64,000 nt of DNA. Source: Ancylobacter polymorphus (GTDB taxonomy: Bacteria; Pseudomonadota; Alphaproteobacteria; Rhizobiales; Xanthobacteraceae). A program made the translations under genes and the position numbers. Location: contig NZ_JAUSUI010000003.1 of assembly GCF_030813495.1 (NCBI RefSeq), positions 434,001-498,000 on the forward strand, read 5' to 3'. Shown one piece after another: positions 47,544-49,862 of the stretch. Numbering within the stretch: the stretch's first letter is position 1; each line of letters starts with the position of its first letter. A model generated the notes under the pieces. The model did not search any database and was not told the origin of the DNA. It saw only the letters and a list, made by a program, of their open reading frames with translations.

Positions 47544-47966
47544 ATGAGCGATATCAACGACGCCGACAGCTATATCGAACTCGCCGCCGATATCGTCTCG
47601 GCGTATGTGAGCAATAATGCGGTCTCGGCCAATGAACTTGTCACCCTCCTTGCGGAAGTGCACGGCGCTCTGCAGCGCGTGAACAAGGGCGAGGTGGAGA
47701 TGGTGGTTGAGCCGCTGAAGCCCGCCGTGCCGCCGAAGAAGTCCGTGATGCCCGACTACATCGTGTGTCTGGAGGACGGCAAGAAGTTCAAGTCGCTCAA
47801 GCGGCATCTGCGCACGCAGTACAACCTCACTCCCGAGGCGTATCGCGAGAAGTGGGGCCTGCCGGCCGACTACCCCATGGTTGCGCCCAATTACGCCGCC
47901 GCCCGTTCGGCGCTGGCGAAGGAAATGGGCCTCGGCCAGCAGCGCCGGCGCAGCACGGCGGGCTGA
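47544..47966 (+). CDS. mucR: MucR/Ros family zinc-finger transcriptional regulator
   Basis: This 140-residue regulator controls exopolysaccharide, motility and cell-cycle genes in Hyphomicrobiales relatives. The C-terminal Ros/MucR zinc-finger region reads CLEDGKKFKSLKRHLRTQYN, then LTPEAYREKWGLPADYPMVAPNYA. The N-terminus (LAADIVSAYVSNNAVSANEL) is the oligomerisation region. The ATG at 47544 is best; the frame extends upstream to 47457 but lacks similarity. It is preceded by the TGACGTA palindromes and ended by a terminator at 47996. Confidence 0.93.
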   Translation: MSDINDADSYIELAADIVSAYVSNNAVSANELVTLLAEVHGALQRVNKGEVEMVVEPLKPAVPPKKSVMPDYIVCLEDGKKFKSLKRHLRTQYNLTPEAYREKWGLPADYPMVAPNYAAARSALAKEMGLGQQRRRSTAG

Positions 47967-47995: not shown

Positions 47996-48026
47996 AAAGG
48001 CCGTCACCCCGTGTGGCGGCCTTTTT
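47996..48026 (+). terminator. Rho-independent terminator of mucR
   Basis: AAAGGCCGTCAC (47996-48007) pairs with GTGGCGGCCTTT (48013-48024), one G-U pair included, and runs into five T. The stop codon of the convergent hypothetical gene at 48004 lies inside the hairpin. Confidence 0.8.
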
Positions 48027-48321
48027 CGTTGCGCGCGACGGCGGCGGGCCTGAGTGGCGCATCCAGTTCCGCGAGCAGCCGCGCCAAGGCGGCGTGGCGG
48101 GCGGCATCATAGCCGAGGCCCGAGCCGGCGGCGCGGCGCTCGGCGCGCAGCAGGCGCCGCAGTACCGTGCGGCATTCCTCGCCGCCGCGCCCGAGAAAAG
48201 GCCGCAGCGCGGCGGCCCGGCGGCCAATGATGGCGTCGCGCTCCTCGCTGCGCGCGGCGCGTATGCGGCGGCCTGTGGCGCGGCGGTTCGTTTCAAAGGG
48301 CTGGGACGCTTGCGATCGCAT
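48004..48321 (-). CDS. Small basic hypothetical protein convergent with mucR
   Basis: This 105-residue, Arg/Ala-rich, helical protein (RRIRAARSEERDAIIGRRAA, LRRLLRAERRAAGSGLGYDAAR) matches no family I recognise. Support comes from a GAGG sequence seven bases before the ATG and a GC-rich third codon position like its neighbours. Against it, the C-terminus is encoded by the mucR terminator hairpin and Arg/Ala-rich open frames arise easily at this GC content. It could be a chance frame. Confidence 0.4.
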   Translation of the reverse strand: MRSQASQPFETNRRATGRRIRAARSEERDAIIGRRAAALRPFLGRGGEECRTVLRRLLRAERRAAGSGLGYDAARHAALARLLAELDAPLRPAAVARNEKGRHTG

Positions 48322-48455
48322 GGTGAACCTCGCTCTACCAAGGCGAGTATGGCTGGCGGCGGGAGGGTGCGGATAAAAATCCTATTACCTTCCGCCGGAA
48401 TCAGGCGGGCATCCCCCGAGGCTCCACGGAGCGTCACTGTCGATGTGTTCATCTT

Positions 48456-48485
48456 TTGTTCTTGTCAGGCAGCGAATCCGATAAT
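48456..48485 (+). promoter_or_regulatory. Candidate sigma-70 promoter of the DnaA-domain gene
   Basis: TTGTTC (48456-48461) and GATAAT (48480-48485) are 18 bases apart and lie 31 bases upstream of the ATG at 48516, in a locally AT-rich stretch. The match is good but not proven. Confidence 0.4.
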
Positions 48486-48515
48486 AGGCTTTAATTCCTT
48501 GATCGGAGATGTCCC

Positions 48516-48893
48516 ATGCCCGTGACCCCGGCCTCCCCGCCATCCCTGCGGCCGACCGCCGAGCCGTGCCTGCTCGCCGCCCGGCTCGCCGCCGACGCCA
48601 CCGCCATTCCGCTGCCGCTCGTGCTGCATCCCCGCCGGCTGGATCGCCGCTGCGCCTCCGCCCGCGCGCTGGCGATGTATCTCGCCCATGTCGGGCTTGG
48701 CCTGCCGATGAGCCGCGTGGCGTCCGGCTTCGGCCGGCACCGCTCCACCGTCGCCCATGCCTGCCGGCGCATCGAGGAGCGACGCGAGAGCGCCGGCTGG
48801 GACCGTTGGGTCGCGGCGCTGGAAGAGGATGCGCGCCGCCTGTCGTCCCCCGCGGGCGCCGGCGCGCCACCGGCGGGAGGGCCGCATGGCTGA
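48516..48893 (+). CDS. Orphan DnaA domain IV-like helix-turn-helix protein
   Basis: This 125-residue protein has a segment resembling the C-terminal DNA-binding domain of replication initiator DnaA: ARALAMYLAHVGLGLPMSRVASGFGRHRSTVAHACRRIEE, residues 49-88 when numbered from the ATG. The DnaA signature GRDHTTV appears as GRHRSTV (73-79), so the Asp-His DNA contacts are replaced. The ATPase and other DnaA domains are absent. The ATG at 48516 follows GGAGATG. It overlaps the DUF6456 gene by eight bases, so both are cotranscribed. Confidence 0.8.
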   Translation: MPVTPASPPSLRPTAEPCLLAARLAADATAIPLPLVLHPRRLDRRCASARALAMYLAHVGLGLPMSRVASGFGRHRSTVAHACRRIEERRESAGWDRWVAALEEDARRLSSPAGAGAPPAGGPHG

Positions 48894-49431
48894 GCGTCAT
48901 ATCGACCATATCGAAGTGGAAATAGACGGCGTACGCCGCGCCGTCGCCGTCGATCTCGACGAAAGCCCGCTCGGCTGGCTGGCCCGGCGGCGCGGGCGCG
49001 ATGGACGCAGCTTCATCGCGCCCGTCCAGCTCATTGCCGGGGAGCGGCTGCGGGCCGACTTCACCCGCGCCGGCATGGCCCCGCGCCTCACCGCCAATTG
49101 GGACGCGGTGACGCGCACCGACCGCGCCGGCGGTGGCGCCGGGCTCAACGCTTCCGAGGCCATGCTCGCCGCCCGACAGCGCGTGGGGCGGGCGATGGAG
49201 GCCGTGGGGCCGGAATTCTCCGGCCTGCTGGTCGATGTCTGCTGCTTCCTGAAAGGTCTGGAGCAGGTGGAGCAGGAGCGCTTCTGGCCCGCGCGCACCG
49301 CCAAGGTGGTGCTGGCGCTCGGGCTCGACCGGCTGGCCCGGCACTACGGGCTCAGCGCGGCGGCGCAGGGGCCGGCGCGCGCCCGCACCCGCGCCTGGAA
49401 GGCGCCGGAGCCGCCGGAGGGCAAGGATTAG
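48886..49431 (+). CDS. DUF6456 domain-containing protein
   Basis: This 181-residue protein has the DUF6456 pattern: SPLGWLARRRGRDGRSFIAP, QLIAGERLRADFTRAGM, then VGRAMEAVGPEFSGLLVDVCCFLKGLE and LGLDRLARHYGLS. DUF6456 is known mainly from Alphaproteobacteria and has no established role; the last part resembles a helix-turn-helix. The start codon lies inside the last codons of the DnaA-like gene. It ends tail-to-tail with sufE, the two stop codons overlapping. Confidence 0.82.
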   Translation: MAERHIDHIEVEIDGVRRAVAVDLDESPLGWLARRRGRDGRSFIAPVQLIAGERLRADFTRAGMAPRLTANWDAVTRTDRAGGGAGLNASEAMLAARQRVGRAMEAVGPEFSGLLVDVCCFLKGLEQVEQERFWPARTAKVVLALGLDRLARHYGLSAAAQGPARARTRAWKAPEPPEGKD

Positions 49432-49862
49432 GCGGCCGCGCCTTCCAGCGCCGCGCGGGCGTCGGCGCGGATGCGTTCGACCATGGAACGCAGCCCGTTC
49501 GAGCGCTGCGGCGTCAGATGGTCCTTGAGGCCGATGCGCGCGAACACGGCACCGGGGTCCGCCGCGAGAATCTCGCGGGCCGTGCGGTCCGAATAGAAGG
49601 CGAGCAGGATGGCGACAAGGCCGCGCACGATATGGGCGTCGGAATCGCCGTGAAAGGCGAGGCGGAGATCGTCCGCGCCGCCGGCAGGCTCGCTCACCAG
49701 CCACACCTGGCTGGCGCAGCCCTGAACCTTAAATTGGTCGCTGCGCTGCTCCTCCGGGAAGGGCGGCAGAGCGCGCCCCAGCTCGATGAGGTAGCGGTAG
49801 CGGTCGTCCCAATTATCGAGGAGCTCGAAGTCCTCGATGATGCTGTCGATCTTGGATGTCAT
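49428..49862 (-). CDS. sufE: SufE family cysteine desulfuration protein
   Basis: SufE accepts persulfide sulfur from the SufS desulfurase for Fe-S cluster assembly. The 144-residue protein has the acceptor cysteine C49 in VQGCASQVWLV, and the typical ELGRALPPFPEEQRSD start and GLVAILLAFYS. The rest of the suf operon is elsewhere. The start at 49862 is preferred; the frame opens to 49910. It is convergent with the DUF6456 gene, overlapping at the stops. Confidence 0.92.
   Translation of the reverse strand: MTSKIDSIIEDFELLDNWDDRYRYLIELGRALPPFPEEQRSDQFKVQGCASQVWLVSEPAGGADDLRLAFHGDSDAHIVRGLVAILLAFYSDRTAREILAADPGAVFARIGLKDHLTPQRSNGLRSMVERIRADARAALEGAAA

Follow-up and report, generated by a model that had tools for sequence, protein, structure and literature searches.

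Genes and features at the locus

The window analysed here, a stretch of 64,000 nucleotides from the genome of Ancylobacter polymorphus, contains two small genes in tandem, the first for a DnaA-like protein and the second for a DUF6456 protein, between mucR and a convergent sufE (Table 1). As originally predicted, the two genes overlap by eight bases (48886-48893), the ATG of the second lying inside the end of the first, and mucR is about 550 bases away: 549 bases were counted from its end (47966) to the ATG of the first gene. The small divergent ORF in this interval matched no Pfam or NCBIfam family, and relatives of it were found at 30 of 80 loci. Gene transfer agents (GTAs) are phage-like particles that move host DNA between bacteria. 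We suggest that the pair is very probably GafY and GafZ of a resident GTA of the RcGTA type, and the names gafY and gafZ are used from here on. This identity rests on domain, fold, gene order and co-occurrence with GTA genes.

Table 1. Features around gafYZ (positions in the window) and viral contigs carrying a remainder of the GTA terminase gene.
Feature	Position	Strand	Description	Basis
mucR	47544..47966	+	Syntenic neighbour	ROS_MUCR, E 2.9e-53
Small divergent ORF	48004..48321	-	105 aa, motif YDxxRHxAL; between mucR and gafY	
Distal dyad CGGATAAAAATCCT	48370..48383	.	RogA-operator-like; between gafY and divergent small ORF	
Candidate -35 of gafYZ, TTGTCA	48462..48467	+	17 bases to the -10	By eye, alignment of 18 upstream regions
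Candidate -10 of gafYZ, TAGGCT	48485..48490	+	Overlaps proximal dyad	By eye
Proximal dyad AGGCTTTAATTCCT	48486..48499	.	RogA-operator-like; over candidate -10	
gafY	48516..48893	+	125 aa, stand-alone DnaA domain IV-like DNA-binding protein	PF08299, predicted fold, PDB profile matches
gafZ	48886..49431	+	181 aa, DUF6456 protein	PF20057, E 1.5e-48; sole match in genome
sufE	49428..49862	-	Syntenic neighbour, convergent	SufE, E 4.3e-47
Viral contigs with terminase remainder	L237-L243, L248, L264			

Domain, fold and contact motif of GafY

The original prediction described GafY as a stand-alone DNA-binding domain of the DnaA type, and profile, model and structure searches all bore this out. The only match above cut-off was to Bac_DnaA_C (PF08299; E 1.7e-9, scoring 38 bits where the cut-off is 31.5), in which residues 43-86 aligned to positions 25-69 of the profile, and an AAA+ ATPase domain was absent from the protein. 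When a model predicted from 46 aligned sequences (mean pLDDT 83) was searched against the PDB, the first 12 matches were all DnaA chains (1l8q, E 8.3e-4), with TM scores by target length of 0.77-0.80 to 1j1v and 3pvp. The profile of the GafY family also matched six sequences in the PDB with an E of 0.01 or lower, every one a DnaA (best E 3e-16). The fold is that of DnaA domain IV, but GafY has no ATPase, its contact His is replaced by Arg and one Gly of the GGRDH loop is missing.

The Asp-His residues of the DnaA contact motif read the DnaA box. This motif is GGRDHTTV in the DnaA of A. polymorphus, and in GafY (residues 73-79) it has become GRHRSTV, as had been noticed in the original prediction, with the Asp-His pair not kept. 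In the 46 aligned GafY sequences, the position of the His is occupied by Arg in 40, Pro in four and His in two, whereas the Asp is kept in 24 sequences and replaced by His in 21 and by Asn in one. Because Arg replaces His in 40 of the 46, the change is not special to A. polymorphus, and judging from the alignment the altered motif is a trait of the GafY family. Such a change would fit the loss of DnaA-box recognition by the protein.

The predicted model of GafZ gave no significant match in the PDB (best E 0.47), and the fold search returned only partial sigma-4-like matches (3hug and 8jzt; TM 0.61-0.71 by target length, E > 1).

Gene order and co-occurrence with GTA genes

DUF6456 proteins have been described as GafA, a direct activator of GTAs (PMC9638019), and in Caulobacter GafA is split into the DnaA-like GafY and GafZ (PMC9632790). 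The arrangement of a DnaA-like gene followed by a DUF6456 gene, tied to an RcGTA-type cluster, is shared with gafY and gafZ of Caulobacter crescentus (CCNA_01111/CCNA_01112). According to the papers, GafA of Rhodobacter capsulatus (rcc01865) has homologous N- and C-terminal parts, but there they form one fused protein. In Hyphomicrobiales, the small DnaA-like gene mostly precedes the DUF6456 gene, and the two are flanked by mucR on the upstream and sufE on the downstream side (PMC9638019), which is the order in A. polymorphus; the divergent small ORF, the promoter dyads and the prophage described below are features of A. polymorphus without mention in the excerpt of that paper. Gozzi et al. 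counted 759 GafZ homologs in 1,331 genomes, 494 of them with an adjacent GafY (PMC9632790). Protein families, gene order and these papers point to orthology with the Caulobacter and Rhodobacter proteins. The original prediction of a regulatory module was right in kind; however, the module is already published as a split GafA, its target being the GTA cluster, and the pair itself is a described system in one more genome.

Gene order was counted at 62 of 80 named loci, as 18 had too little flank. All three of gafY, mucR and sufE accompanied gafZ at 34 loci, mucR and sufE without gafY at 21, gafY and sufE at three, gafY alone at three and sufE alone at one. The closest named relatives of GafZ were mostly from Ancylobacter. 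Adjacency in related genomes, on which the original prediction had placed weight, is kept, although a good many relatives have no gafY at the locus. With this and the profile match to DnaA domain IV, neither outcome named beforehand as refuting the original prediction was observed.

The A. polymorphus genome has a single DUF6456 gene and a single GTA_TIM gene (PF13547, E 1.9e-133), and also GTA portal, capsid and tail genes and a terminase. An RcGTA-type cluster is thus present, split by a prophage; the GTA promoter and the terminase gene lie 26 kb downstream of gafYZ on the same strand. Among 198 genomes of the family, DUF6456 was matched in 149 and GTA_TIM in 119. When only strong matches were taken, leaving 135 of the 149 DUF6456 genomes (E no higher than 4.5e-42) and 114 of the 119 GTA_TIM genomes, 112 genomes had both, two had GTA_TIM only, 23 had DUF6456 only and 61 had neither, an association with a Fisher p of 4e-29 and an odds ratio of 149 when the kinship of the genomes is ignored. 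The GTA_TIM genomes left out of this count were G122, with a weak match, and four of genus g3 (G049, G146, G175 and G184), in which GTA_TIM was divergent or partial and DUF6456 was not matched. As for the two genomes with GTA_TIM only, G098 has a partial DUF6456 and G164 is a fragmented draft. With all matches counted, GTA_TIM occurred without any DUF6456 in five genomes, namely the four of g3 and G164, and with a partial or weak DUF6456 only in G098 and G122. In 14 control genomes, DUF6456 and GTA_TIM were found only in Caulobacter vibrioides.

GafY was directly upstream of GafZ in at least 93 of the 135 GafZ genomes. Among the matches listed, 34 of the 112 genomes with both GTA and GafZ had no adjacent GafY, and this apparent loss of GafY in genera keeping GafZ and the GTA adds to what is known of the pair.

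Two genomes, G071 (C1:608418 and 633394) and G127 (C1:2386005 and 2409330), contained a second, divergent DUF6456 at 23-25 kb from a second GTA_TIM; perhaps these sets are related prophages with a GafZ of their own. In genus g26, the GafZ match of G169 and G189 came in two separate parts, interrupted by stops in G169, the terminase match was shortened or split, and GTA_TIM was not found among the matches listed; GafZ and the GTA are perhaps decaying jointly in these genomes. The occurrence of GafZ in phage records was considered and rejected. Five phage records were matched, of which one was good (MW462191.1, 55% over 129 residues) and is a bacterial-looking contig, and the other four matches were short (E 9e-4 to 2e-3). 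MW462191.1 (L235), a public 'Bacteriophage sp.' record, has the chromosomal order mucR-gafY-gafZ-sufE and is therefore probably no phage.

A prophage in the GTA terminase gene

The GTA terminase match of A. polymorphus ends at residue 415 of 453, and a prophage flanked by a 19-base core separates the terminase gene from the portal gene. In a relative, the flank of contig C3 and the GTA part of contig C5 correspond to a single stretch, on which they overlap by 18 bases, and both junctions (C3:510216 and C5; L043, L007-L042) carry GGACGAGATGTGCGATTTC within the codons for EDEMCDF. Both C3 and C5 end within the prophage, which is known from its two ends. An integrase gene adjoins one junction; its match to PF00589 is weak and under the cut-off (E 0.0041), and it matches annotated phage integrases in 35 records (e.g. 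E 4e-25). The integration removes the C-terminal end of the terminase, about 40 residues including the conserved SPDRLDALVWA, and leaves the head-tail genes separated from the promoter.

In a genome of another genus (G181), a single contig (C11, L201) contains the terminase gene as far as EDEMCEF, an insert of 17.8 kb and then the remainder of the terminase gene. The insert ends in an integrase related to that of A. polymorphus (57% identity). Related integrases were found on 29 viral contigs, and in nine of these (Table 1) the integrase is followed immediately by the terminase remainder, which starts at residue 409. One of these, L238, reads like G181 across the compared junction stretch and is probably the same insertion. 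Of the other 20 contigs, 11 extend no more than 40 bases past the integrase match, too little to show a remainder, and nine are longer, without a terminase remainder. The integrase of A. polymorphus lies on the opposite side of the core compared with G181 and the viral contigs.

The junctions in two genera and the remnants in nine viral contigs are observed. We tentatively suggest, as a possibility to be kept in mind rather than favoured, that the GTA terminase gene is a recurrent integration site of a family of tyrosine-integrase phages and that lysogeny would act as a reversible off-switch of the GTA. If this is true, integration would shield the prophage from GTA-driven lysis of the host, and excision would restore the operon. 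Phages targeting the terminase gene are an addition to the known system, and a literature search by title or start of the abstract found no earlier report of a prophage at this site. Together with the GTA promoter, the shared dyad and the apparent loss of GafY, this bears on how a lethal, virus-like particle owned by the host stays off, and on who profits once it is broken.

The interrupted cluster also raises the question of whether GafYZ is intact but idle in A. polymorphus, being kept for other targets or on its way to decay. The truncated terminase and the prophage ahead of the portal gene speak for this, as do the 23 of 135 genomes that keep GafZ without a strong GTA_TIM and the approximately 18 accessory target promoters of GafY in Caulobacter (PMC11150451). 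However, neither the reading frames nor the promoter elements are damaged, and a prophage with a flanking 19-base core may leave again. We consider an idle pair somewhat unlikely.

The gafYZ promoter and a candidate repressor

In Caulobacter, the gafYZ promoter has two RogA sites, GGAA-N4-TTCC (PMC9632790). An alignment of 18 gafY upstream regions from Ancylobacter and near relatives contained two conserved elements, both (A/C)GGN-N6-TCCT, and these dyads share the geometry of the Caulobacter sites. A strict form of the dyad with an A/T-rich centre, a pattern drawn from these dyads, was present in 17 of 17 gafY promoters of the Ancylobacter set (two dyads in 11), compared with 0.3-0.4% of shuffles. 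It was found in 14 of 30 other gafY promoters and was lacking in 16, and among 27 GafZ-only loci it was found in seven and lacking in 20. The distal dyad of A. polymorphus also sits upstream of the small divergent ORF.

A LexA-like protein of 208 residues with a Peptidase_S24 domain (C2:597033-597656) is our candidate for RogA, which has 213 residues in Caulobacter. The gene is present in 186 of the 198 family genomes, and among its 30 best-scoring promoters of the 186 genomes, 23 had a looser form of the dyad, compared with 2.4% of shuffles. The identity is given only as a candidate because the protein, read from its sequence, retains the serine of GDSM, unlike Caulobacter RogA, in which key cleavage residues are missing (PMC9632790).

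The dyads might instead belong to another XRE-type repressor, of the CdxB, RtrA/B or CdxA type, as such factors also act on the Caulobacter gafYZ promoter and repress it (PMC13236601). Nevertheless, the dyads have the geometry of RogA sites, and the promoter of the rogA candidate itself contains a similar one at most of the best-scoring loci, as counted above. An assignment to other XRE repressors seems unlikely to us, and a repressor of the RogA type is the candidate we favour.

The GTA promoter

In the own genus, the stretch before the small terminase gene was conserved at all 12 loci as TAGGAAAATAGTCCTTGACAGCG-N3-CGCTG...TAGGTT...CATGCTCCACA or close variants. It comprises a dyad, a consensus -35, a palindrome in a spacer of 17 bases, a -10 and a conserved start. 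The palindrome, AGCG-N3-CGCT, lies between TTGACA and the -10, and at 10 of the 12 loci a hairpin with a T run starts 54-116 bases past the presumed start. A loose form of the block was present at 59 of 69 family loci and missing from 10, the 69 being the 30 best terminase matches and 39 picked to span genera, with the orientation to the terminase left free for 18. Terminator-like hairpins within 600 bases were found at 31 of the 59 loci, compared with 24 of 295 shuffles.

The core pattern TTGACAGCGNNNCGCT has a single occurrence in A. polymorphus (C3:508260), which precedes the GTA terminase gene by 0.7 kb. Over the 198 genomes it had 174 matches, compared with 99 for the reversed control. 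Genomes with a strong GTA_TIM (114) accounted for 127 and 60 of these, and the other 84 for 47 and 39; hence the background is high and there is an excess in GTA genomes. Among 150 matches listed of the 174, 85 preceded a GTA terminase gene on the same strand by no more than 5 kb, where about 0.1 would be expected by chance, and 65 were elsewhere, 22 of these in genomes without a terminase in the table, which excluded the 11 weakest rows; one of these (G143) would give one more promoter match. Since loci of the own genus supplied the pattern, only the other genera test it independently. In one genus, extra copies of the pattern preceded the GTA promoter by about 8-10 kb on the same strand (e.g. 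G034 C1:2709555, G142 C2:461332 and G157 C35:374573).

Repressor-like dyads at the gafYZ promoter and a palindrome between the -35 and -10 of the GTA promoter are shared with Caulobacter, in which the palindrome is the element of GafZ and was likened in position to the lambda Q element (PMC11150451). The sequence of the palindrome differs, however, and the consensus -35 stands in contrast to the degenerate -35 of Caulobacter (PMC11150451). In addition, the 12 aligned promoters of the own genus had no conserved element upstream of the -35 dyad, where Caulobacter has GafY and IHF sites. Because of this and the consensus -35, GafY may act differently in A. polymorphus than in Caulobacter. Another difference is the operator-like dyad directly on the GTA promoter, as Caulobacter RogA was detected only at gafYZ and CCNA_02002 (PMC9632790). 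The layout of core promoter, element between -35 and -10, terminator and late genes is shared with the lambda Q module, a comparison made for GafZ before (PMC11150451). The likeness is one of layout only, since GafZ is described in the excerpt of that paper as without sequence or structural similarity to known anti-terminators.

This family-conserved promoter, with its layout like that of lambda Q, is an addition to the known pair, and so is the shared dyad, which would put the repressor directly on the GTA promoter. Our literature search found no earlier description of a family-conserved GTA promoter in which a consensus -35 is combined with a palindrome ahead of the -10 and, at many loci, a terminator, nor of a RogA-operator-like dyad at the gafYZ, GTA and rogA-candidate promoters.

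Two other candidates in this region were rejected. TGCTCCACA in the initial transcribed stretch, which resembles the DnaA-box consensus, was considered as a GafY site, but several genera that lack GafY retain it and some that have GafY show it altered. A known RNA at the GTA leader was sought by an Rfam scan of four loci, and the one match up to E 1 (M23 RNA, E 0.81, below the gathering score) is attributed to chance.

Proposed mechanism

GafY would be a DNA-binding activator derived from DnaA domain IV that lost the code for the DnaA box. GafZ would be loaded onto RNA polymerase at the palindrome inside the GTA promoter and would let the polymerase pass terminators into the GTA cluster, while a LexA-like repressor of the RogA type on the core promoters would keep the system off. 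Activation, anti-termination and contact between GafY and GafZ are suggested by work in Caulobacter and Rhodobacter; in Caulobacter, GafY binds RpoD, and GafZ works together with RNA polymerase and with Nus factors (PMC11150451). That the rogA candidate binds the dyads and acts directly on the GTA promoter is our own suggestion from the sites. Most likely the pair functions in the way described for Caulobacter, though the promoters differ in detail.

MucR affects cell-cycle genes in this bacterial order, as the original prediction pointed out; we found no evidence linking the pair to MucR function or to the cell cycle, and mucR, which neighbours the pair at 55 of the 62 named loci, appears to be a syntenic neighbour. 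A regulator of replication or the cell cycle tied to MucR was rejected as highly improbable, because although the DnaA domain IV fold and the neighbouring mucR would suit it and Caulobacter GafY was first named HdaB and can impact replication when overexpressed, GafY has no ATPase domain and an altered contact motif, its DUF6456 partner is strongly tied to GTA genes, and Gozzi et al. attribute the effect on replication to induction of the GTA and argue that GafY has no action on oriC replication (PMC9632790).

Other DnaA-like genes in the genome

A stand-alone DnaA domain IV protein of 192 aa that keeps GGRDHTT is encoded in the prophage region of C5 (L003:1420-1998, minus strand). A second full-length DnaA, with matches to the N-terminal, ATPase and domain IV families, lies on C13 (L009:2615-4015), a contig of 60 kb, and its neighbours appeared by eye to be phage- or plasmid-like.
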